Shown here in pieces: positions 15,704 through 26,938 of a stretch of 64,000 nucleotides of DNA. The stretch covers positions 1 to 64,000 of the forward strand of contig NZ_LGTE01000007.1 in NCBI RefSeq assembly GCF_001263415.1. The letters are read 5' to 3'. The translations under genes and the position numbers were made by a program. The notes beneath the pieces were generated by a model, which saw only the letters and a list, made by a program, of their open reading frames with translations, was not told the origin of the DNA and made no database searches. The stretch is from Thermincola ferriacetica. GTDB taxonomy: Bacteria > Bacillota > Thermincolia > Thermincolales > Thermincolaceae. How positions within the stretch are numbered: the first letter of the stretch is position 1; each line of letters opens with the position of its first letter.

Positions 15704-17071
15704 TTAAACAGCTTGTCCTGCCTTTCCTGCTGCAATCTCTTTTTGCATTTGCTCCAATTTCTGAGGCGTGATTTTATACAGGAATGATATTAGTAACAGC
15801 CCTGCCAACAAGATAAGAGCAGGTATCAGCGTAATTCCGCTTTTGATACCGTTTACCAGTTCCGGTGTAGGCGCCATCTCCGCAACATACCCTGCCCCTG
15901 CAAGGATAGCAGTAATAACAACGCTCCTTAAAAGTATCGCAGTCTTAATGGGGAAACTAATCAGCGACATAATAAAGCCTCTCGCATTTTTCCCTGTTTT
16001 CCATTCACCATATTCAACAGTAGCTGAGTACATGGCAACACTTAATGCATCAGGCATTGCATATCCCAAATAGGCCACGAACATTAAGATCATAAAAGAA
16101 ACGTAATTCATTGGAAATGCCCATATTGCCAGCAAGCAGCAAATAAATATTAACAGTGATAAAATATAAACATTCCTCTCACCGAATTTTTTGGCCAATG
16201 GGTTGGCAAGTGCAGAACCCAGGAATATAACCACGTTAAGACCGGTAAAGAATATGGTAATTACAGCCAGATTGTTAACAACATATTTGAAATAGTAGAA
16301 GGCCAAACCGAATATAACAAATCTTCCCATAAACCTACCAAGTTCACCTAACATTAACCCTATAAGAGGCGGGTTGATTACAATTTGCTTCAGCATGTCT
16401 GCCACAGACAGTTTTTCTGACGGCTGACCGGCTTCTGCCGTTCCGCTGTGAGCGTAGTCCTTAGTTATAAAGAAAAGCACATAATAGCAGGCTATCATTA
16501 CAAGACCGGTAATTACAACAGTAAGGGTATAACCTATGGCCGGATTGTCTTTGCTTCCCAGAGCAGTAATCAGCGGCATACCGACCAATGAAAAAGCTAT
16601 GGCTCCTAATCCGTTGAACATACCCCTGTTTGACGCCATAGCAATTCTTTCTTCTCTTACAGGCGTCAATGAGGAGTTCATGGCAATGTGCCCTGCATAA
16701 TATATGTTCCAAATCAGGTGGCTTACAACAAAGCCGATTGTAATTAAAACAGCATTCAACGTTGGGGAACCAATTTTAGAAAACTGCAAAACGAAAAACA
16801 AAGCTGCGAAAGGAGGCCCTACCAGTAACCATGAACGGTATTTGCCCCACCTCATGTTGCTCTTTTCCAAAATAACTCCTGCTGTAGGCACCCATACAAT
16901 ATCGAATATACTGGTAATAAGCAATACGGTGCCGACTAAAGCCATCGGGAGCTTTGCAAAGTCAGTCAAAAAGGCTGCAAAATAGAATACTTCCATATTT
17001 ACAAACAACTGAAATCCGAATGAAGGTAATCCGTACAAATTAATAATTGACTTTTTTAATTGCTGTACCAT
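15704..17071 (-). CDS. MFS transporter, GPH (MFS_2) type, copy 2
   Basis: A 455-residue, 12-segment GPH-family transporter with NMRWGKYRSWLLVGPP near residue 71 and VEYGEWKTGKNARGFIMS near 358. It is a paralogue of the next gene downstream (14090-15445). The ATG follows AAAGGGGGAG. It directly follows the 47-residue small gene, so module 1 runs mtrH, corrinoid protein, UroD-fold methyltransferase, small protein, two MFS transporters. Tandem related symporters suggest uptake of two related solutes or a two-part carrier; neither is shown. Confidence 0.8.
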   Translation of the reverse strand: MVQQLKKSIINLYGLPSFGFQLFVNMEVFYFAAFLTDFAKLPMALVGTVLLITSIFDIVWVPTAGVILEKSNMRWGKYRSWLLVGPPFAALFFVLQFSKIGSPTLNAVLITIGFVVSHLIWNIYYAGHIAMNSSLTPVREERIAMASNRGMFNGLGAIAFSLVGMPLITALGSKDNPAIGYTLTVVITGLVMIACYYVLFFITKDYAHSGTAEAGQPSEKLSVADMLKQIVINPPLIGLMLGELGRFMGRFVIFGLAFYYFKYVVNNLAVITIFFTGLNVVIFLGSALANPLAKKFGERNVYILSLLIFICCLLAIWAFPMNYVSFMILMFVAYLGYAMPDALSVAMYSATVEYGEWKTGKNARGFIMSLISFPIKTAILLRSVVITAILAGAGYVAEMAPTPELVNGIKSGITLIPALILLAGLLLISFLYKITPQKLEQMQKEIAAGKAGQAV

Positions 17072-17142: not shown

Positions 17143-17286
17143 TTACAGCAGTAAGTTCAAAATGAAATTGAACATCATGTCTTCATACTTTTCTATTTTC
17201 GGAGCGATTACTTTTTCCGGTCGTCCTTCCAGTTCAGGATGCTTTTCCCTGTATTCTTCCCAGGTCATGTAATATTTGGAATTCAT
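17143..17286 (-). CDS. 47-residue conserved small protein, copy 1
   Basis: This small gene encodes 47 residues. It starts at ATG 17286 behind AAGGAGGGGG, a very strong ribosome binding site. The N-terminal two thirds is charged (KYYMTWEEYREKHPE, then EKVIAPK) and the end is hydrophobic (FNFILNLLL). It aligns without a gap to the 47-residue product at 23978-24121 with 23 identical residues, although the DNA has diverged. Both copies sit directly after a UroD-fold methyltransferase gene and before an MFS gene. I do not recognise the family. A subunit or membrane tether for the methyltransferase is a reasonable guess only. Confidence 0.8.
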   Translation of the reverse strand: MNSKYYMTWEEYREKHPELEGRPEKVIAPKIEKYEDMMFNFILNLLL

Positions 17287-17320
17287 ATTCCCCCTCCTTC
17301 CTTGGCTAAATGTAGCCGCT

Positions 17321-18478
17321 TTAATAACTACCGTTTTCCATAATGTAGCTTAATACAGCCCGCAGGTTTTTGGCTACCTTGCCTTCTTTATCAGCGTTGA
17401 TGATACTCTTGTCAGCCTGGAACCAATATTTGCCGGTTGGCGCCAGAATATCCAGTAATTCTTTAGCTTTATCAATACATTGTTCTTCAGTTCCAGTCTG
17501 CAGCAAGGTAACAGGATAGAAGCCGGAAATAATGTGCTTTTTGCCCAGTTTTTCTGCAACAAGTTTCGGGTCACCGTATTCAAACCTCATAATTGTGTTT
17601 TCCGGTAATTCATACAGGTAATCCAGATATCTCATCCAATCATGTTCTACAAACAGTTGCACATTTTGTCCCATAGCAACACATTCTTCTACCAGTTTCT
17701 TAAACGTGGGCCAGTAGAATTTTTCAAAGTCCTTATCACGCATATAAGGAGCCATGTGCAAAGGAATAAAGGTAAAACCAAGAATCCCCGGAGCCGGCAG
17801 CTTGCCCTTCTTGATCATCAAAGGCAGTACTGCTTCACAGGCCGCCAGAACCTTATCAGGATATCTCCTTACATCACCGGAAATCCCTTTAAAGCTCCTC
17901 AGAAAATCAGCTAAAAAATCAAAAGGAGCTTCTGTCAAGGCAACCGCCGGGGCCACCAGACCATGTTTGGCATTAATTCTTTCCCTAATCTGGGCCAGGG
18001 TACCGTAATCGTCGTAATAAGCCTTCATTGCTTTGGCCAAAACCAGAGCCTTTTGACTGGGCTCTGCATCAAGCTCGGTATATAACCTGGGCAAAACAGT
18101 GTCAATAATAAAATCATAGGGGGCTGCAATAAAGTCATCGTATTCTTCTGCCAGCAGACCCACTACCTCCGGGTGCTGCATAAAACCGCCGGAACCCATG
18201 ACAATAGCCTTGGAACCCAACATTTGGTAAAAGGCAGGGAGCCTTAAACTGCCTATGGGAGTAGTATCCGTCGGAAACTCCTGGCAAAACTTGTCAAGAA
18301 TCGGTTCCATGCTGGGTACATCCCATTGAACCACTGCCAGGTCCTCACCATAATACTGAATCGCATATTCCAGAGTTGCCGGATTGCTCACCGGCACCCT
18401 TTTAGGGGTCTTTCCGCTGAAAAGATCCCTGAAAATCTGTTCCCTTTCTTTGGCTAATGCGGTAACATCCGCCATCAT
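17321..18478 (-). CDS. UroD-fold corrinoid methyltransferase, module 1
   Basis: A 385-residue protein of the uroporphyrinogen decarboxylase superfamily, the fold of the MtaA/MtbA group and of several O-demethylase methyltransferase I enzymes. Visible family blocks are PKRVPVSNPA, GFTFIPLHMAPYMRDKDFEKFYWPTFK, FVEHDWMRYLDYL and FEYGDPKLVAEKLGKKHIISG; the conserved His and Asp/Glu could bind zinc. The ATG at 18478 overlaps the corrinoid-protein stop by one base (TAATG), indicating coupled translation. It is about half identical to the module 2 enzyme. It probably transfers a methyl group from the growth substrate to the corrinoid protein; a methoxyaromatic substrate is the favoured inference. 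Confidence 0.8.
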   Translation of the reverse strand: MMADVTALAKEREQIFRDLFSGKTPKRVPVSNPATLEYAIQYYGEDLAVVQWDVPSMEPILDKFCQEFPTDTTPIGSLRLPAFYQMLGSKAIVMGSGGFMQHPEVVGLLAEEYDDFIAAPYDFIIDTVLPRLYTELDAEPSQKALVLAKAMKAYYDDYGTLAQIRERINAKHGLVAPAVALTEAPFDFLADFLRSFKGISGDVRRYPDKVLAACEAVLPLMIKKGKLPAPGILGFTFIPLHMAPYMRDKDFEKFYWPTFKKLVEECVAMGQNVQLFVEHDWMRYLDYLYELPENTIMRFEYGDPKLVAEKLGKKHIISGFYPVTLLQTGTEEQCIDKAKELLDILAPTGKYWFQADKSIINADKEGKVAKNLRAVLSYIMENGSY

Positions 18479-19122
18479 TACATCACCCACCCCTGACAGA
18501 TTTTTACGCCTTCAGCGGCGTTGGTCGTGAATGCATCAGCGCCTATCTGCTTGCATGCATCGTCAGTAACAGGGTTTCCTCCGATGATTATTTTTATGTC
18601 ATCACGCAGTCCTGCTTCTTTAACGGCATCTACTGTCTTTTTCATGGCATCCAGGGCAAGGGTCAGCACCCCGCTCATCCCCAGGATTTGCGGCTTTATT
18701 TCTTTTACTTTTTCTACAAACTTATCGGCCGGCACATCTATTCCCAGGTCATATACCTCAAATCCTGCCGCTTCAGCCATGCTGGCAAAAATATTTTTGC
18801 CTATGTCATGTAAGTCCCCTTCAACTGTACCAAGTACTATTTTCCCAATCTTGGAGGCCTTCTCCCCACCTAAAACGGGTTTTAAGGTATCAATGGCTGC
18901 CGTAAGTAATTCCCCGGCAAATATCAAATCCCCAACAAAGTACTCGCCTTTCTCAAATAAATCTCCGACTATGGCCATTCCCTGCTGACACGCGTTAACT
19001 ACTTTGTTTGCTTCTTCCCCACTTGGGTTAGTTCCCACAAATTCTTTCAACATCGCCAATACTTTTTCTTCGTCAAGTTCTCCTACTGCCTGAGTCAACT
19101 TTTCCAAATCCACCATAATCAT
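18478..19122 (-). CDS. Corrinoid (B12-binding) methyl carrier, module 1
   Basis: A 214-residue MtaC/MtvC-type corrinoid protein. An N-terminal helical cap domain (about residues 1-85) is followed by a Rossmann B12 domain with the cobalt-ligand motif GDLHDIGKNI (His about 106), SGVLTLA and IIIGGNPV. It carries the methyl group from the UroD-fold enzyme to the MtrH-type enzyme. The start follows AAGGAGGAGAA. The first 50 or so codons are almost identical in DNA to module 2, and the rest has diverged, so a duplication or conversion boundary lies inside this gene (18968). Confidence 0.9.
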   Translation of the reverse strand: MIMVDLEKLTQAVGELDEEKVLAMLKEFVGTNPSGEEANKVVNACQQGMAIVGDLFEKGEYFVGDLIFAGELLTAAIDTLKPVLGGEKASKIGKIVLGTVEGDLHDIGKNIFASMAEAAGFEVYDLGIDVPADKFVEKVKEIKPQILGMSGVLTLALDAMKKTVDAVKEAGLRDDIKIIIGGNPVTDDACKQIGADAFTTNAAEGVKICQGWVM

Positions 19123-20125
19123 TTCTCCTCCTTTAATAGTTGTATTAGGCCGAATCTCTCTGCACTTTTCCGGTTAACTCAATTACACCCCCTGCCCGTC
19201 ATCAAACATGCTAATATTTCTTATTTTCTGACAATTTTAGTCGCTCATAAATTTCAGACAATTGCATTGCCAACTAATTTCAATTGTAATGCCAATTATT
19301 TTTCGACCACTTTAACGGGTCCAATTTTGTTTTTCCGGTATGCGTTGGCAAAGTTCCTGCAGAACCGGTCGCGTCCAAGCAACGCTTCCGTTGCCAACAG
19401 CGTCGTTAACATGTCCCTGTTACAGGGGTCCAAAATGGCTGAATCCATGCCGGCATACATTGCTATAGTTAAAAAGTGTTGATTTATTACCTTTCTTAAA
19501 GGCATACCAAAAGAAATATTGCTTAAACCTGAGGTAACTTTTATGGTGGGGTACAATTCTTTTACAGCGGTCAGTGTCTCAATGAAGTTCAGCAGAGATT
19601 TGTTATCAGCGGAAAGGGCCATTACCAATGGGTCTATGTGGATCCTGTCGGGGGTTATGCCGTATTTTTGTGCTTTTTCTACCATAATCTTTGTTATATC
19701 TACCCTGGTCTGAACATCTGACGGAATTCCCCTGTTGTCGCAGGTCAATGCGATAACCTGCCATTCTGTGCCCTGTATCATCGGGTAAATAACTTCGCAT
19801 TTGTCGCCTTCCTCGGATACTGAGTTAATTATTCCGGGCCGCTTGGCATATGGAAAAACCTTTTCAATTGTTCTTGGATTGGGGCTGTCAATGCATAATG
19901 GTTTATCAACGGCATCCTGGACAATGTCCATCAGCCAGATCAAAGTTTCCTCTTCGATCTCCGGCGCTGTACCTGCACAGACATCGATGTAATCGGCTCC
20001 TGCCTCGGCCTGCCTGACAGCCAGGTCCCGAATAAACTCTTCATCCTTGGCCTCTATTGCTTTTTTGACACTTGGAATGGTACCGTTAATTTTTTCCCCA
20101 ATGATAATCAATTAATTCACCCCCT
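18968..20125. repeat. 1158-bp duplicated segment, copy 1
   Basis: This segment matches 25781-26938 at a constant offset of 6813 bp. By eye the only difference is C at 19051 against T at 25864 (Met/Ile in the corrinoid protein). It covers all of mtrH, the 173-bp gap and the first part of the corrinoid gene, and stops just upstream of the mtrH start, before the promoters. The flanks are similar but diverged on the corrinoid side and unrelated on the promoter side. Confidence 0.9.
19296..20111 (-). CDS. MtrH-type methyl-tetrahydrofolate methyltransferase, copy 1
   Basis: A 271-residue pterin-binding TIM-barrel protein of the MtrH/AcsE/dihydropteroate-synthase superfamily. Key blocks are IIIGEKINGT at the N-terminus, AGADYIDVCAGT, LCIDSPNPRTIE, DPLVMALSADN and VTSGLSNISFG, the last two lining the pterin site. 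It should move the methyl group from the corrinoid protein to tetrahydrofolate, feeding the Wood-Ljungdahl pathway. The start is a TTG behind GGGGGTGA. The protein is identical to that at 26109-26924. It opens the module 1 operon, under its own operator-bearing promoter. Confidence 0.9.
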   Translation of the reverse strand: MIIIGEKINGTIPSVKKAIEAKDEEFIRDLAVRQAEAGADYIDVCAGTAPEIEEETLIWLMDIVQDAVDKPLCIDSPNPRTIEKVFPYAKRPGIINSVSEEGDKCEVIYPMIQGTEWQVIALTCDNRGIPSDVQTRVDITKIMVEKAQKYGITPDRIHIDPLVMALSADNKSLLNFIETLTAVKELYPTIKVTSGLSNISFGMPLRKVINQHFLTIAMYAGMDSAILDPCNRDMLTTLLATEALLGRDRFCRNFANAYRKNKIGPVKVVEK

Positions 20126-20323: not shown

Positions 20324-21022
20324 TCATTGGCTAATTCCCTGCAATTTAATATAGTCTCCACGAAAGTATGTAATTCCCAGCCCCATTGGCTTATCTTCAC
20401 TGTTATAAAGTTTCTGCTCCACAACCATTAAGGCCAATTCATTATAAATATTTAGATATCGTTTTATATCCTCATCCGGAGTTCGAGCATAAATGGTGAG
20501 TTCTTTTTTTATCGCAAAAAGGGACGTGCTGCCGGAAATCATTTCTGTGAAGGTAGCATGTTCGATTTCTTTTTCCACTATAGGCATCCCCTTACGGTAA
20601 ATTAAATATTTAACGTCATAAGCTACAGGGTCGCCGTCAGTATAAAACAACCGACGGATCATAATAACGTTTTTGTTCCTGGTAATCTGTAATTCATCGG
20701 CCAGCTTTTCATCGGGCATGATAATATTGACTTCCAGCAACTTGGTTTTGTCAACACTATTAATAGCGTTGTTCATTTCGTCGTAATAAAGAATATATTT
20801 ATTATGTTGCGGCTTTCGAACAAAGTTACCTTTACCGGGAATTGAGTAAATGTATCCTTCGTTGGCCAGAATGGCCAAGCTTTTTCTTACAGTCATCCGG
20901 CTGGTCCCAAATTCTTTACACAATGCAGCTTCCGAAGCAATAGCATCACCTGGTTTTAATTCGGCGCGGTTTATCTTATTCTTTATTTCTTCAGCTATTT
21001 TTATATAAACAGGATTACTCAT
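20324..21022 (-). CDS. GntR-family (HutC/UTRA) regulator
   Basis: A 232-residue GntR regulator. The winged helix occupies residues 5-72 (GTSRMTVRKSLAILANEGYI, then PGKGNFV) and a UTRA ligand-binding domain fills the rest. HutC-type GntR proteins bind short AT-rich palindromes, often TGTATATACA-like, and release them when a small ligand binds. Six such palindromes stand in front of genes of this island, so this is the most likely local repressor. Its start overlaps the preceding corrinoid gene by 8 bp, and the shared promoter at 22492-22550 also carries the site, implying autoregulation. The ligand is unknown. Confidence 0.85.
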   Translation of the reverse strand: MSNPVYIKIAEEIKNKINRAELKPGDAIASEAALCKEFGTSRMTVRKSLAILANEGYIYSIPGKGNFVRKPQHNKYILYYDEMNNAINSVDKTKLLEVNIIMPDEKLADELQITRNKNVIMIRRLFYTDGDPVAYDVKYLIYRKGMPIVEKEIEHATFTEMISGSTSLFAIKKELTIYARTPDEDIKRYLNIYNELALMVVEQKLYNSEDKPMGLGITYFRGDYIKLQGISQ

Positions 21023-21692
21023 TTTTATTTACTCCCTGTCCGGTCCGATTAATCCATTCGATGCATTTTTTTACGCCAACAGCAGCGTCATTGGCAAAAG
21101 CATCGGCGCCAATAAATCTTAATGCATCCTCTGTAAGATGGTTACCGCCAACGATAAATTTAGCTTTATGTCTTAACCCGGCTTCCACAAAAGCATCAAT
21201 TGTCTCTTTCATTGCATCCACAGTAGATGTGAGTACACCGCTTAACCCAACAATATCGGGTTTGTGTTCCTCAACTTCTTTTACAAAAATCTCTTTCGGA
21301 ACATCTACCCCGAGATCAATAACTTCAAAGCCGTTGGCTTCCATCATGCCCCTGAATATGTCTTTTCCAATATCATGAATGTCGCCTTTTACAGTTCCAA
21401 CGATAACTTTCCCAATCTTTTGCTCGTGGTTGCTTTGGAAATGAGCGGTCATTTTATCTAATTCCAACACTTGCTTAAAAATAAGCCCGGCCATAATCAG
21501 GTCTGCTATATAATAGTCCTTGCTCTCATACAGCTTGCCAACCCTGTTCATACCTTCGTTAATCAGTTCCAGCAGGCGGAGCGGATGCATTCCTGCATTT
21601 AGCGCCTCGTTAGCCAGTTTTATGGCATTTTCTTCGTCTAATTGCTCTACCAGCTTTATAATTGTTCCTTCCATTTTCTTTAGATCTTTCAT
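21015..21692 (-). CDS. Third corrinoid (B12-binding) protein
   Basis: A 225-residue MtaC-type corrinoid protein with motif KGDIHDIGKDIF (His ligand about residue 112), SGVLTST and FIVGGNHL. It is a diverged paralogue of the two module carriers. I chose the ATG at 21692 because GGAGG lies 5 bp upstream; a GTG at 21704 has no ribosome binding site. It is co-transcribed with the DUF1638 gene upstream and the GntR gene downstream, without a dedicated methyltransferase. It may accept methyl groups from an enzyme encoded elsewhere, or work with the DUF1638 protein. Confidence 0.85.
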   Translation of the reverse strand: MKDLKKMEGTIIKLVEQLDEENAIKLANEALNAGMHPLRLLELINEGMNRVGKLYESKDYYIADLIMAGLIFKQVLELDKMTAHFQSNHEQKIGKVIVGTVKGDIHDIGKDIFRGMMEANGFEVIDLGVDVPKEIFVKEVEEHKPDIVGLSGVLTSTVDAMKETIDAFVEAGLRHKAKFIVGGNHLTEDALRFIGADAFANDAAVGVKKCIEWINRTGQGVNKNE

Positions 21693-21728
21693 TTGATCCT
21701 CCACAATAAAGTATTTTGAGGTGGTAAC

Positions 21729-22409
21729 CTAAATAGCCTGGTGGGATGGCTCACTGTACTGATGCCGAAAATGACCGATATTGACTGTTTCACCCTTTTT
21801 AACGACGCAGAAATTTTCATCATATGGCCCTGTTAACAGCTTTTTCAGAAACCAAATGCCGCCTTCTGTTACAGCCAGTTCCAGGTGGGTATTTTGGGCT
21901 AACTCCCGGGCTTTGTTCAACCACTCTTCCAGGTTATATGCTTTTGTGTCAATAAGCATTAAATGATGATAGTGCTTGAGCATTAGCGCAAAAATTTTCT
22001 TAGCCCTTTTTTCTCCATAACGTTTTAAAGTATGCCAGTATTCATTCAACAAGCCTTTAGAACTTTCCATCCAGCCTTTAGTTAAGAAATAGGTTTCTTT
22101 CCGGCGTTCAAATATTTTGCCGGGCTCGCTTAATACCATAGATATGCAATCATCAGTCTTAGGAATAATTAAATTAGCCGTAGAAGCCTTTAAACCTACC
22201 AGACCGTTACCGCAGCAACCGTAGGCGAATAATATGTTGTCCACGTTAGTCAGTGCATCTATTTCCTTTTGCAACCTTTTCCTTAATTCATTAGGATCTA
22301 TATGATATTCTGATTCTACCCAAATTACCGGATATTGGCATCCCGTTTCCCGTATCGCCAAATTTAATTCATCAAGCAGCGTCTCACAGGCAATAATTGT
22401 ATAATTCAT
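21729..22409 (-). CDS. DUF1638 family protein
   Basis: A 226-residue protein that I recognise as DUF1638, a family of unknown function often found with corrinoid methyltransferase genes. It has a conserved-looking double cysteine, YGCCGNGLVGL (about residue 68), and an IPKTDDCIS segment about 25 residues later, which together could bind a metal or corrinoid. The ATG at 22409 has GAGGA 9 bp upstream; the frame is open to 22445 but unsupported. It is first in the operon with the third corrinoid protein and the GntR regulator. Confidence 0.75.
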   Translation of the reverse strand: MNYTIIACETLLDELNLAIRETGCQYPVIWVESEYHIDPNELRKRLQKEIDALTNVDNILFAYGCCGNGLVGLKASTANLIIPKTDDCISMVLSEPGKIFERRKETYFLTKGWMESSKGLLNEYWHTLKRYGEKRAKKIFALMLKHYHHLMLIDTKAYNLEEWLNKARELAQNTHLELAVTEGGIWFLKKLLTGPYDENFCVVKKGETVNIGHFRHQYSEPSHQAI

Positions 22410-22491
22410 ATAAATCATTCCTCGCCTAAAATAATGTAAGGTCACAATACAGCATCTGGTGTTAGTTTAACCGGGAAAACCGCCCTCAAGA

Positions 22492-22629: not shown

Positions 22630-23862
22630 CTAGATGGCTTCTATAGAGTTAGGACCCGCCTCAGCCCGGGCTTTGGCGCCCAATTCAGGCAGAAACAAGG
22701 CCACTACGCCCATCATTAAAAATGACAAACTGCCCAGGGCAAATAGCATATTGTAGTTTTGGCCCGCCAACGGGGCAATAATAAAAGATGGAATAAAGAC
22801 AGCCCCGACAACTTGCAGAGTACCGATGATACCTCCGGCGCTTCCGGCATAAACAGGGCCTATTTCCGGAAGCAGCATCGGGAACGCCATAAGTAAAGGC
22901 GTGCATATTCCCGAGAAGATTCCAAGCAGGGCAAGCAGCGCTACCATGTCTGCCCCTTGAGCAACCAGCCAGGACGAATATCCGGCAATTGCTCCCAGAA
23001 CCGCCACAGGGGCCAAAAAGGGCTTAATTTTTCCAATGCGGTCGGACATAACGGGACCTAAGATGCTGCCCACAATGGTACCAAAGGTCACTATAGAGGC
23101 CATAAACCCGGCTGTTACCGGACTCATCCTATGCACTTTGTTTAATGCATTAGGAAGAAAACCGGAAAATACCATTGATGAACCCATGAAAAACATCAAG
23201 GCTAAACCCACCAGCCAGACATTTTTGCTTCTGGCAGCTACGCCAATATATTTGGTCACGGACATGACCGGCAGATCAGGTGCGCCCTCAGGCTTGGGCT
23301 TAATAAAGGCCATCCATAAAATCCATATTACCAGCATAATTAAACCCGCAGTAATAAAGGCGCTCTTGGTTGTTGGAAAGAAAGCCGACGTGGCCAAAGC
23401 GACACTCATACCAACACCGCTGGCAGAAAAATAGATACCCATGGCAGTGCCCATCTGTTCCCTGGGAAACCATGCCCCCAGCAGCTTGGATACGTTGGCG
23501 TTCAAGAGGCCCGGACTGATTCCGGCCAGGAACATCAGCATAAACATTTCCCAGAAGTTGTGGGCGGCAAACCGGAAAAACACTCCTACTATCGAAAAGA
23601 CAAACCCTACTGCTACCACTTTTTTGACACCAAAGCGGTCAGCTAAGGCGCCCGCCGCGAAACTGAAACATACACCGGCCAACATAGGCGCTGTCAGGAT
23701 CATGGAATACTGCCCAGGTGTCAGTTTGAAATCAGGGATAATTTTATATGCCAAGGCTGCTACCTGAAACTGGGCGGCGATACCGATAAATACAGCAGAC
23801 CACATGATTATGAGAATCACCCAGCGATATGGCGACAGCAAAGGCTTTGTACCTTCACTCAT
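22630..23862 (-). CDS. MFS transporter, OFA (oxalate/formate antiporter) type
   Basis: A 410-residue, 12-segment major facilitator protein resembling the oxalate:formate antiporter group of carboxylate carriers, with GALADRFGVKKVVAVG and DRIGKIKPFLAP loops. It is unrelated in subfamily to the two GPH transporters of module 1. It ends the module 2 gene row after the UroD-fold methyltransferase and small protein genes, so it is the likely carrier for the module 2 substrate or its demethylated product, probably a carboxylate. That assignment is from context. Confidence 0.8.
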   Translation of the reverse strand: MSEGTKPLLSPYRWVILIIMWSAVFIGIAAQFQVAALAYKIIPDFKLTPGQYSMILTAPMLAGVCFSFAAGALADRFGVKKVVAVGFVFSIVGVFFRFAAHNFWEMFMLMFLAGISPGLLNANVSKLLGAWFPREQMGTAMGIYFSASGVGMSVALATSAFFPTTKSAFITAGLIMLVIWILWMAFIKPKPEGAPDLPVMSVTKYIGVAARSKNVWLVGLALMFFMGSSMVFSGFLPNALNKVHRMSPVTAGFMASIVTFGTIVGSILGPVMSDRIGKIKPFLAPVAVLGAIAGYSSWLVAQGADMVALLALLGIFSGICTPLLMAFPMLLPEIGPVYAGSAGGIIGTLQVVGAVFIPSFIIAPLAGQNYNMLFALGSLSFLMMGVVALFLPELGAKARAEAGPNSIEAI

Positions 23863-23977: not shown

Positions 23978-24121
23978 CTAGATACACAGGAACATGATAA
24001 ATGCAAACAGCCGTTCCTCATAACTCTGCATTTTAGGAGCGATTACCTTCTCCTGTTTCTCATCAATTTCCGGATGTTCTGCCTTATACTGTTCCCAGGT
24101 TTTATAATACTTGGCCTGCAC
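23978..24121 (-). CDS. 47-residue conserved small protein, copy 2
   Basis: A 47-residue gene starting at GTG 24121, 6 bp after AAGGAGGGG, and 13 bp downstream of the UroD-fold methyltransferase stop. The protein (KYYKTWEQYKAEHPE, then EKVIAPK, YEERLF and a hydrophobic end FAFIMFLCI) aligns end to end with the product at 17143-17286. Identical positions cluster in KYY, TWE, HPE, EKVIAPK and YE. Equal length and conserved protein with diverged DNA argue for a real, selected gene. I know of no named family and assign no function. Confidence 0.8.
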   Translation of the reverse strand: MQAKYYKTWEQYKAEHPEIDEKQEKVIAPKMQSYEERLFAFIMFLCI

Positions 24122-24134
24122 TTACAACCCCTCC

Positions 24135-25289
24135 TTAATAATTAGCGTTGGTAGCTACGTATTCCAGCACAGCCTGGAGGTTTCTGGTGTTAACACTGTC
24201 CACTGTGATAGGTGACTTATCAAAACCAAAGAAGTACCTGCCACCCGGGGCCAAAATATCGATAAGCTCTTTAGCCTTGTCAATACACTCCTGCTCGGTC
24301 CCGGTTTTTAACAGGGAAATTGGATAGAAACCGGTAATGATATGCTTTTTGCCAAGTTTTTCTTTGACTAATTTGGGGTCACCGTACTCAAACATCATGA
24401 TGGTGTTTTCCGGCAGTTCAGCTAAATAATCAACATAACGCATCCAGTCTTGCTCTACGAATAGGAATGACTTAATGCCGGCCTCCGCTAAACCATCAAC
24501 GGTTTTCTTAAAGGTTGGCCAGTAGAATCTTTCAAAGTCCTTATCCCGAAGATAGGGTGCCATGTGCAGAGGAATAAATGTAGCCGATGTTTTTGTCGGG
24601 TTAGGCTGCATGCCCATTTTGATCATCCATGGGGTAACTGCCTCAACGGCCGCTTCCACTTTATCAGGAACCCGGCGAACATCAATGGAAATATTCTTAA
24701 AACCCCTTAACTGGTCAGCGACGAAGTCGAAAGGTGCCTCACACATGCCGCCAAAAAGGTTAACACGGGCATAGCCGTATTTCTCTATCAGTTTGTCATA
24801 TAACATGGCGGCAGCGCCCATGTCATCGTTAAAGGCGGTGAAGGCTTTGGCTAAAGTCATAGCCTTACCCACTGGGTCTTTATCAAGTTCACTGTATAAC
24901 CGGGGTAATACCTTTTCTACTATACAGTCGAAGGGTGATTCGATGAAAGCATCATAATCTTCTAAAGCCAACCCTTCAACCTCAGGATGCTGCAGGAATC
25001 CGCTGGAGCTCATGACAAAATTGCGGGCACCCAGGATCTTGTAAAAGGAAGGAAACCTGAAAGCTAGTACAGGCAGTGTATCGGAATAAAAATCCGCACA
25101 AACTTTTTCAAATATCTCCGGAAGTAGTGAGGTATCCCACTGAGCTTCCGCCAAGTCTTTTCCGGCATACTGAATAGCAAACTCGATGGGCAGATTGTGG
25201 CTAACAGGCACTCTCTTGGGAATGACACCGTCAATTATATCTTCAAACAATTTAGTCCGCTCTTGGGACAATGCGAGTTTATCGGACAT
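24135..25289 (-). CDS. UroD-fold corrinoid methyltransferase, module 2
   Basis: A 384-residue UroD-superfamily methyltransferase, roughly half identical to the module 1 enzyme, sharing PKRVPVSHN, FIPLHMAPYLRDKDFERFYWPTFK, FVEQDWMRYVDYL and FEYGDPKLVKEKLGKKHIITG. A notable change is FVEHDW in module 1 against FVEQDW here; the His/Gln lies in a probable active-site strand. The gene starts one base after the corrinoid-protein stop. Likely role: methyltransferase I for a second, related substrate. The divergence between the two enzymes, against the identity of their MtrH partners, fits different substrates feeding one acceptor. Confidence 0.8.
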   Translation of the reverse strand: MSDKLALSQERTKLFEDIIDGVIPKRVPVSHNLPIEFAIQYAGKDLAEAQWDTSLLPEIFEKVCADFYSDTLPVLAFRFPSFYKILGARNFVMSSSGFLQHPEVEGLALEDYDAFIESPFDCIVEKVLPRLYSELDKDPVGKAMTLAKAFTAFNDDMGAAAMLYDKLIEKYGYARVNLFGGMCEAPFDFVADQLRGFKNISIDVRRVPDKVEAAVEAVTPWMIKMGMQPNPTKTSATFIPLHMAPYLRDKDFERFYWPTFKKTVDGLAEAGIKSFLFVEQDWMRYVDYLAELPENTIMMFEYGDPKLVKEKLGKKHIITGFYPISLLKTGTEQECIDKAKELIDILAPGGRYFFGFDKSPITVDSVNTRNLQAVLEYVATNANY

Positions 25290-25290
25290 T

Positions 25291-25935
25291 CTATTTCACC
25301 CACTCCTGACAAATTTTTACGCCTTCAGCAGCGTTGGTTGTGAATGCATCGGCGCCAATTTGCTTGCATGCATCCTCGGTAACAGGGTTCCCCCCGATAA
25401 TTATTTTTATGTCATCACGCAGCCCTGCTGCCTGAAGCGCATCCACAGTATTCTTCATTGCATCCAGAGCAAGGGTGAGCACACCGCTCATGCCCAAGAT
25501 TTGTGGCTTAATTTCTTTTATCTTCTCTACAAACTTGCCGGCCGGAACATCTATCCCCAGGTCGTAAACTTCAAAGCCGGCCGCTTCGGCCATGCTGGCA
25601 AAGATGTTTTTACCGATGTCATGCAAGTCACCTTCAACTGTACCGAGAACTATTTTCCCAATTTTGGTGTTGCTCTCCCCACCCAAAACAGGTTTTAAGG
25701 TGTCGATGGCTGCTGTAAGTAATTCCCCGGCAAAGATCAAATCACCAACAAAGTACTCGCCTTTTTCAAATAAATCTCCCACTATGGCCATTCCCTGCTG
25801 ACACGCGTTAACTACTTTGTTTGCTTCTTCCCCACTTGGGTTAGTTCCCACAAATTCTTTCAATATCGCCAATACTTTTTCTTCGTCAAGTTCTCCTACT
25901 GCCTGAGTCAACTTTTCCAAATCCACCATAATCAT
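25291..25935 (-). CDS. Corrinoid (B12-binding) methyl carrier, module 2
   Basis: A 214-residue corrinoid protein with GDLHDIGKNIF, SGVLTLA and IIIGGNPV, as in module 1. The first 50 or so codons are nearly identical to module 1 (Ile in place of Met at residue 24), and the rest differs at several places (for example SNTKIGK against KASKIGK). Start and AAGGAGGAGAA ribosome binding site are the same as in module 1. It lies between mtrH and the UroD-fold methyltransferase gene. Confidence 0.9.
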   Translation of the reverse strand: MIMVDLEKLTQAVGELDEEKVLAILKEFVGTNPSGEEANKVVNACQQGMAIVGDLFEKGEYFVGDLIFAGELLTAAIDTLKPVLGGESNTKIGKIVLGTVEGDLHDIGKNIFASMAEAAGFEVYDLGIDVPAGKFVEKIKEIKPQILGMSGVLTLALDAMKNTVDALQAAGLRDDIKIIIGGNPVTEDACKQIGADAFTTNAAEGVKICQEWVK

Positions 25936-26938
25936 TTCTCCTCCTTTAATAGTTGTATTAGGCCGAATCTCTCTGCACTTTTCCGGTTAACTCAATTACA
26001 CCCCCTGCCCGTCATCAAACATGCTAATATTTCTTATTTTCTGACAATTTTAGTCGCTCATAAATTTCAGACAATTGCATTGCCAACTAATTTCAATTGT
26101 AATGCCAATTATTTTTCGACCACTTTAACGGGTCCAATTTTGTTTTTCCGGTATGCGTTGGCAAAGTTCCTGCAGAACCGGTCGCGTCCAAGCAACGCTT
26201 CCGTTGCCAACAGCGTCGTTAACATGTCCCTGTTACAGGGGTCCAAAATGGCTGAATCCATGCCGGCATACATTGCTATAGTTAAAAAGTGTTGATTTAT
26301 TACCTTTCTTAAAGGCATACCAAAAGAAATATTGCTTAAACCTGAGGTAACTTTTATGGTGGGGTACAATTCTTTTACAGCGGTCAGTGTCTCAATGAAG
26401 TTCAGCAGAGATTTGTTATCAGCGGAAAGGGCCATTACCAATGGGTCTATGTGGATCCTGTCGGGGGTTATGCCGTATTTTTGTGCTTTTTCTACCATAA
26501 TCTTTGTTATATCTACCCTGGTCTGAACATCTGACGGAATTCCCCTGTTGTCGCAGGTCAATGCGATAACCTGCCATTCTGTGCCCTGTATCATCGGGTA
26601 AATAACTTCGCATTTGTCGCCTTCCTCGGATACTGAGTTAATTATTCCGGGCCGCTTGGCATATGGAAAAACCTTTTCAATTGTTCTTGGATTGGGGCTG
26701 TCAATGCATAATGGTTTATCAACGGCATCCTGGACAATGTCCATCAGCCAGATCAAAGTTTCCTCTTCGATCTCCGGCGCTGTACCTGCACAGACATCGA
26801 TGTAATCGGCTCCTGCCTCGGCCTGCCTGACAGCCAGGTCCCGAATAAACTCTTCATCCTTGGCCTCTATTGCTTTTTTGACACTTGGAATGGTACCGTT
26901 AATTTTTTCCCCAATGATAATCAATTAATTCACCCCCT
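25781..26938. repeat. 1158-bp duplicated segment, copy 2
   Basis: Partner of 18968-20125, same strand, with one visible difference in 1158 bp. The identical tract runs from within the corrinoid gene to 14 bp upstream of the mtrH start. Confidence 0.9.
26109..26924 (-). CDS. MtrH-type methyl-tetrahydrofolate methyltransferase, copy 2
   Basis: The 271-residue product is identical to that at 19296-20111: IIIGEKINGT, DVCAGT, DSPNPRTIE and SGLSNISFG define the pterin-binding barrel. It opens module 2 (mtrH, corrinoid protein, UroD-fold methyltransferase, small protein, OFA transporter). The start is TTG behind GGGGGTGA. The upstream promoter and operator differ from copy 1, so the two identical enzymes can be expressed separately while the same repressor sees both. 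Confidence 0.9.
   Translation of the reverse strand: MIIIGEKINGTIPSVKKAIEAKDEEFIRDLAVRQAEAGADYIDVCAGTAPEIEEETLIWLMDIVQDAVDKPLCIDSPNPRTIEKVFPYAKRPGIINSVSEEGDKCEVIYPMIQGTEWQVIALTCDNRGIPSDVQTRVDITKIMVEKAQKYGITPDRIHIDPLVMALSADNKSLLNFIETLTAVKELYPTIKVTSGLSNISFGMPLRKVINQHFLTIAMYAGMDSAILDPCNRDMLTTLLATEALLGRDRFCRNFANAYRKNKIGPVKVVEK

Follow-up and report, generated by a model that had tools for sequence, protein, structure and literature searches.

A tiny protein encoded behind UroD-type methyltransferase genes of Thermincola ferriacetica and other anaerobic bacteria as a probable second subunit of the enzyme

The first 64,000 nucleotides of contig NZ_LGTE01000007.1 of Thermincola ferriacetica (hereafter the window, meaning the whole stretch of DNA analysed) contain two modules in which a gene of only 47 codons follows the gene for a UroD-fold, substrate-specific methyltransferase (MTI). 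Each module further includes genes for a corrinoid protein, for a methyltetrahydrofolate:corrinoid methyltransferase (MTII) and for a transporter. The features are listed below.

15704..17071, minus strand: GPH-family transporter, directly downstream of copy 1 (Pfam MFS_2, TIGR00792)
17143..17286, minus strand: copy 1 of the gene for the putative small subunit, 47 aa, ATG start (homologues; pN/pS 0.09 with the nearest relatives)
17293..17299, minus strand: ribosome binding site AAGGAGG of copy 1, 6-nt spacer (read from the sequence)
17321..18490, minus strand: MTI of module 1, 389 aa (Pfam URO-D; MTI tree)
18478..19122, minus strand: corrinoid protein of module 1 (Pfam B12-binding and B12-binding_2)
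19296..20111, minus strand: MTII of module 1 (Pfam Pterin_bind, NCBIfam PRK07535.1)
22630..23862, minus strand: MFS transporter, directly downstream of copy 2 (Pfam MFS_1)
23978..24121, minus strand: copy 2 of the gene for the putative small subunit, 47 aa, GTG start (homologues; 23/47 identity to copy 1)
24130..24136, minus strand: ribosome binding site AAGGAGG of copy 2, 8-nt spacer, overlapping the MTI stop codon (read from the sequence)
24135..25289, minus strand: MTI of module 2, UroD-fold methyltransferase, 384 aa (Pfam URO-D; MTI tree)
25291..25935, minus strand: corrinoid protein of module 2 (94% identical to that of module 1)
26109..26924, minus strand: MTII of module 2 (DNA identical to the MTII gene of module 1)

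The original prediction had placed both small open frames at 17143-17286 and 23978-24121, where they are indeed found, but had omitted the strand, which is minus for both. It had also described an excellent ribosome binding site, a position directly after the module 1 methyltransferase gene and a gapless alignment of the two products with diverged DNA, and each of these observations is borne out: AAGGAGG stands 6 nt before copy 1, the MTI stop codon lies 34 nt from the small ORF (13 nt for copy 2), and 23 of the 47 residues are identical in an ungapped alignment, with a DNA identity of 62.5%. When the whole genome was searched with copy 1, copy 2 was matched (E = 8.5e-14), and so was a third copy (E = 2.1e-12), which lies on a different contig (C21:51235-51372) and likewise behind an MTI gene; the likeness of the copies is not due to chance. 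The two window MTIs score 25.2 and 39.4 bits against Pfam PF01208 (UroD superfamily), above the gathering cut-off of 23.9. Between the modules, the corrinoid proteins are 94% identical, the MTIs 58% and the small proteins 49%; MTI and small protein have diverged together.

When one set of GTDB species genomes was scanned with the window type of the small protein (class A, see below), 42 loci were obtained, among others in Desulfosporosinus, Desulfotruncus, Desulfoscipio, Desulfallas, Anaerovirgula, Anaerosolibacter, Geosporobacter, Thermosediminibacter, Robinsoniella and Thermincola MAGs. Sampled Bacillota genomes gave matches in 26 of 398, the weakest of which may be chance. In Bacillota, the confident homologues occur in two arrangements and in nothing else, either as a free ORF of about 47 aa that starts about 11-34 nt past the MTI stop codon or as the exact C-terminus of a longer MTI whose open frame comprises about 440-500 residues. 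Both kinds are present in Anaerovirgula and Anaerosolibacter, and the small part always comes last, whether as a separate gene or within a fused protein. Thus, the search for homologues beside methyltransferase genes that had been proposed as a check places them immediately after UroD-type methyltransferase genes or, in fused proteins, at the C-terminus of the methyltransferase. Weak matches at three loci (L011, L074 and L077) are not behind an MTI and were dropped as homologues.

A second check concerned synonymous versus nonsynonymous change. Many synonymous distances are saturated, including that between copy 1 and copy 2 of the window; among relatives, nonsynonymous change is far the lower, with a pooled pN/pS of 0.13 in Desulfosporosinus and, around copies 1 and 2, values of 0.09 and 0.19, respectively; the small gene is under purifying selection. 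There is practically no chance that the ORF is an accidental open frame or that it encodes a leader peptide of the transporter gene that comes next: apart from the small size, nothing speaks for such a reading, and it conflicts with conservation of the protein across many genera, with purifying selection and with the rarity of similar ORFs behind other genes (3/441, see below). It is already refuted by the existence of fused forms, and 17143-17286 is a real, conserved gene.

To survey its distribution, MTIs were gathered with a divergent query, and 100 loci were fetched. By a fixed rule (36-66 aa, a strong ribosome site, a start between -15 and +60 nt), 81 of the 115 non-fused MTIs no longer than about 405 aa have a small ORF behind them, against none of 47 fused MTIs and none of 21 longer ones; the other genes of these loci served as the control, and only 3 of 441 have one. 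Many of the MTIs missed by the rule do have such an ORF, but its ribosome site is weaker or the gap before it is wider, at up to about 165 nt. Among 158 non-redundant MTIs, labelled by the automatic rule together with assignments by eye, a partner, free or fused, was assigned to 128 and none to 30; the loci share ancestry, so the counts do not represent independent events. Where an MTI lacks a profile match, a small ORF of another sequence class still follows it in most cases.

Three classes of partners (A, B and C) and two small sets (E and G) are linked by profile, while classes D and F are recognised by position only. In profile comparison, class A, to which the window copies belong, reaches class B at 97%, set E at 94% and set G at 90%; class B reaches class C at 90%, and A to C alone gives 46%. 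Column-shuffled controls (30 each) stayed at or below 2.5 for class C and at or below 5.8 for class B, with the exception of one outlier at 36.6. Class C itself occurs both in a split form, ..CVPWEEK..EWEKLDAFAYAYLWWWVQR, and in a fused form, ..VTPWEVK..WEQLEVMGYTWIWQWVL. No alignment of classes D and F with the other classes was obtained by profile; these ORFs share the position without detectable likeness in sequence and may therefore be unrelated. They comprise 36-48 residues and lie behind divergent MTIs (L038, L039, L040, L124, L130, L137; L125, L169, L177, L178, L185, L193). For one class C small ORF (L145), the tested range offers no start other than an internal GTG, which suggests a frameshift or a sequencing error at the beginning of the ORF, and at two other loci (L128 and L131) the fused tail is shortened and more divergent. 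Overall, the 47-residue genes belong to a largely unnoticed family of tiny MTI partner proteins in anaerobic bacteria.

The family is not entirely new to the literature. It had been stated that no named family was recognised, and this holds for Pfam and NCBIfam, where neither window copy, nor class C, nor classes D-G, nor the fused tails found a match above the curated cut-offs; it does not hold for the literature, in which one distant member has been published as RdhX (PMC9888536). RdhX is a 48-residue protein of unknown function, which in Desulfitobacterium hafniense DCB-2 (ACL18787) was detected in the proteome as up-regulated along with RdhU, a corrinoid protein, and RdhV, a UroD-like one (PMC9888536). 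In Dehalobacter restrictus, rdhUVX occurs three times, twice in adjacent positions, with rdhX directly behind the UroD gene, while in D. hafniense the MTII gene rdhW lies between rdhV and rdhX; the authors suggested a role of RdhX in corrinoid handling for dehalogenases (PMC9888536). In a genome taken to be that of D. restrictus PER-K23, we found a class B ORF behind each of three MTIs, one at 2,034,748 and an adjacent pair at 2,084,950 and 2,087,192, and the first of them adjoins TAT-signal and 4Fe-4S proteins of the kind expected for reductive dehalogenases. Class B is thus identified as RdhX by genome, gene order and copy number, rather than by the published RdhX sequence, and with this identification one member of the family has evidence at the protein level, from the proteome. 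RdhX and the window proteins are alike in size (about 48 versus 47 aa) and in being encoded with UroD-like and corrinoid proteins; in sequence, a link would run through the 97% profile match of class B to class A. They differ in context, as RdhX belongs to reductive dehalogenase islands and the window copies to demethylase-type modules: among the ORFs examined around the latter, genes for MTI, corrinoid protein, MTII, transporter and activator were present, and no dehalogenase gene was seen. In Dehalobacter, the same stretch as an RdhV/RdhX-type locus also carries a further UroD methyltransferase with its own corrinoid protein (L257:15425-17279), near dehalogenase-like TAT/4Fe-4S genes.

Presence of the partner follows the MTI tree. 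On this quick tree, which has some long branches, presence versus absence amounts to 2 changes and the three states split, fused and none to 6 changes; fused forms of class A are found at three positions, and one of these lies within the copy 1 clade. Several interconversions between split and fused forms are seen on this tree. Identities among MTIs and among their small peptides correlate with r = 0.886 (Mantel, 0 of 999). Corrected mutual information between tail and core (Neff 43) gave no clear enrichment for any core segment.

Fused proteins made it possible to consider the small part and the enzyme within one predicted structure. The AlphaFold2 model of a fused A-type protein (L017), a close relative of the window MTIs, has a mean pLDDT of 96.0 and a pTM of 0.94, and its tail, whose block means are 93-96, forms a short helix at the TWEQY motif and a second one at 432-453. 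For a fused C-type protein (L164), the mean pLDDT was 93.9 and the pTM 0.92, with helices at 419-426 and 433-453 and a looser linker. A pTM this high at about 455 residues makes it unlikely that the last 45-65 residues lack a fixed place. In Foldseek, the L017 model has its best matches in UroD and in a UroD-type methyltransferase of Methanosarcina, and the L164 model also matches UroD; on the model of their close fused relative, the window MTIs are assigned a predicted UroD TIM-barrel fold. The small protein is predicted to fold as a short helix followed by one of about 21 residues, ordered in the model of the fused MTI. Comparison of the small protein itself with profiles of solved structures returned chance matches only.

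From its hydrophobic tail, the original prediction had considered either a membrane link or a small subunit. A tether that holds the methyltransferase to the membrane or to a neighbouring transporter might be read from the hydrophobic C-terminal residues and from the transporter gene that comes next in both window modules, but the best 19-residue hydropathy window reaches only 0.28-0.92 in the three copies of this genome, and the range of 0.28-1.06 lies well under the usual threshold for a membrane span, which is about 1.6. Moreover, the fused tail is ordered within the model of a soluble, UroD-fold enzyme. A tethering role is accordingly very improbable and the membrane link is not supported, while the suggestion of a small subunit is strongly supported by homologues that lie, where confident, only behind UroD-type methyltransferases or fused to them.

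A partner placed right behind the MTI, and fused to its end in some species, means that these MTIs are probably two-part enzymes. We therefore consider it highly likely that the small protein is a structural subunit of the UroD-type MTI encoded just upstream, and the claim that it is a subunit, taken on its own, is a shade safer still. By analogy with characterised systems, the MTI would move a methyl group from the substrate to the corrinoid protein, and a methoxylated aromatic may be guessed, from related enzymes, as the methyl donor. UroD-superfamily MTIs of three-component corrinoid systems also include the aromatic O-demethylases MtvB, OdmB, VdmB and MtoB (PMC13222342, PMC8630106), which are compared here by description only; they differ from the window MTIs in that the available portions of these two articles mention no small subunit. 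Literature searches found no named small subunit of O-demethylases.

What the subunit might contribute is suggested by MTIs that lack it. The two main tail-less clades have an insertion of 20-28 residues before the middle of the barrel, at different sites of the cap region: in the first (9 sequences), a cap segment has 57-58 residues versus 29-36, and in the second (19 sequences), another cap segment has 74-79 versus 50-59. Examples with an insertion are L179, L181, L186 and L190, and L171, L197 and L204. Both insertions are absent from all 128 MTIs that bear a tail; in two more tail-less sequences there is no insertion either. The chloromethane methyltransferase CdmB of Acetobacterium dehalogenans (PDB 9rui) is, according to PMC13222342, a homodimer held together by extensions between the first strands, which also form a hydrophobic tunnel system or channel. 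CdmB resembles the window MTIs as a UroD-fold MTI of a three-component corrinoid system and matches the MTI of module 2 at E = 4.3e-20, but it has no C-terminal tail and aligns end to end with the first tail-less clade, the one with the cap insertion. That CdmBC, according to PMC13222342, works without a small subunit was counted against the subunit reading, although CdmB is itself of the tail-less type; the window MTIs, which lack both cap insertions and have the partner, are not of the CdmB type.

The small subunit might thus pack on the MTI barrel and complete a cap, a dimer interface or a hydrophobic substrate channel, doing from outside what internal insertions would do in tail-less relatives such as CdmB. 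We put this forward tentatively, as somewhat less than an even bet, because only two clades carry the insertions and two tail-less sequences have neither feature. A similarly guarded view is taken of the wider proposal that the UroD-type corrinoid methyltransferases of a large branch, hitherto regarded as single-chain enzymes, are obligate two-part enzymes, whose second part of 36-63 residues would have been repeatedly fused and split and would replace the channel or dimer insertions of tail-less relatives.

Two other roles can be considered for the small protein. As a docking element, for either the corrinoid protein or the activator of the latter, it would bind the MTI but serve mainly to recruit the methyl acceptor and not to complete the fold of the MTI. 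In fused proteins the tail comes last and is accessible, and most tail-bearing loci, in the pieces fetched, have a corrinoid protein gene on the same strand; tail-less MTIs, however, adjoin corrinoid genes too (26/30), and the window corrinoid proteins have remained 94% identical whereas the small proteins, at only 49%, have diverged like the MTIs, so that docking is judged unlikely. The small protein could also be a regulator of the MTI, i.e., an inhibitor, stability factor or activity switch rather than a constant subunit, by a logic like that of the small proteins of the Mtr complex of methanogens. Small methyltransferase modulators have been published, namely MtrR (PMC13370731) and MtrI (PMC12774963) of Methanosarcina mazei, and, as far as the accessible parts of these reports describe them, they too act on a corrinoid-linked methyltransferase; the likeness is by description only, and they modulate an archaeal membrane complex. 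A constant part agrees better with permanent fusion in several lineages and with the strict pairing of each MTI gene with a single small gene, and regulation is the more doubtful of these two roles.

Methoxylated aromatics and haloalkanes are used anaerobically by means of UroD-type methyltransferases, which are also candidate biocatalysts for demethylation. Should many MTIs require a tiny second subunit, expression of only the large gene would yield an enzyme that is weak or unstable, and a role would be found for dozens of unassigned small ORFs, among them RdhX. The small-protein family has no name apart from RdhX. The repeated splitting and fusion would offer a natural test case of how a domain becomes a subunit.

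Several features of the surroundings should also be mentioned. The two modules share an identical MTII gene (816 bases) and, behind it, an identical spacer of 173 bases (19123-20111 versus 25936-26924), whereas the genes for transporter, MTI and small protein have widely diverged, which points to a duplication or gene conversion that was recent and limited to the shared part. Between the modules (20324-22445), one ORF resembles a GntR-type regulator, another (21015-21704) encodes a corrinoid protein of a second kind, and 21729-22445 encodes a DUF1638 protein (E = 5.8e-49). At one of the other loci (L073), part of a DUF1638-like ORF is likewise present, immediately upstream of the MTI.
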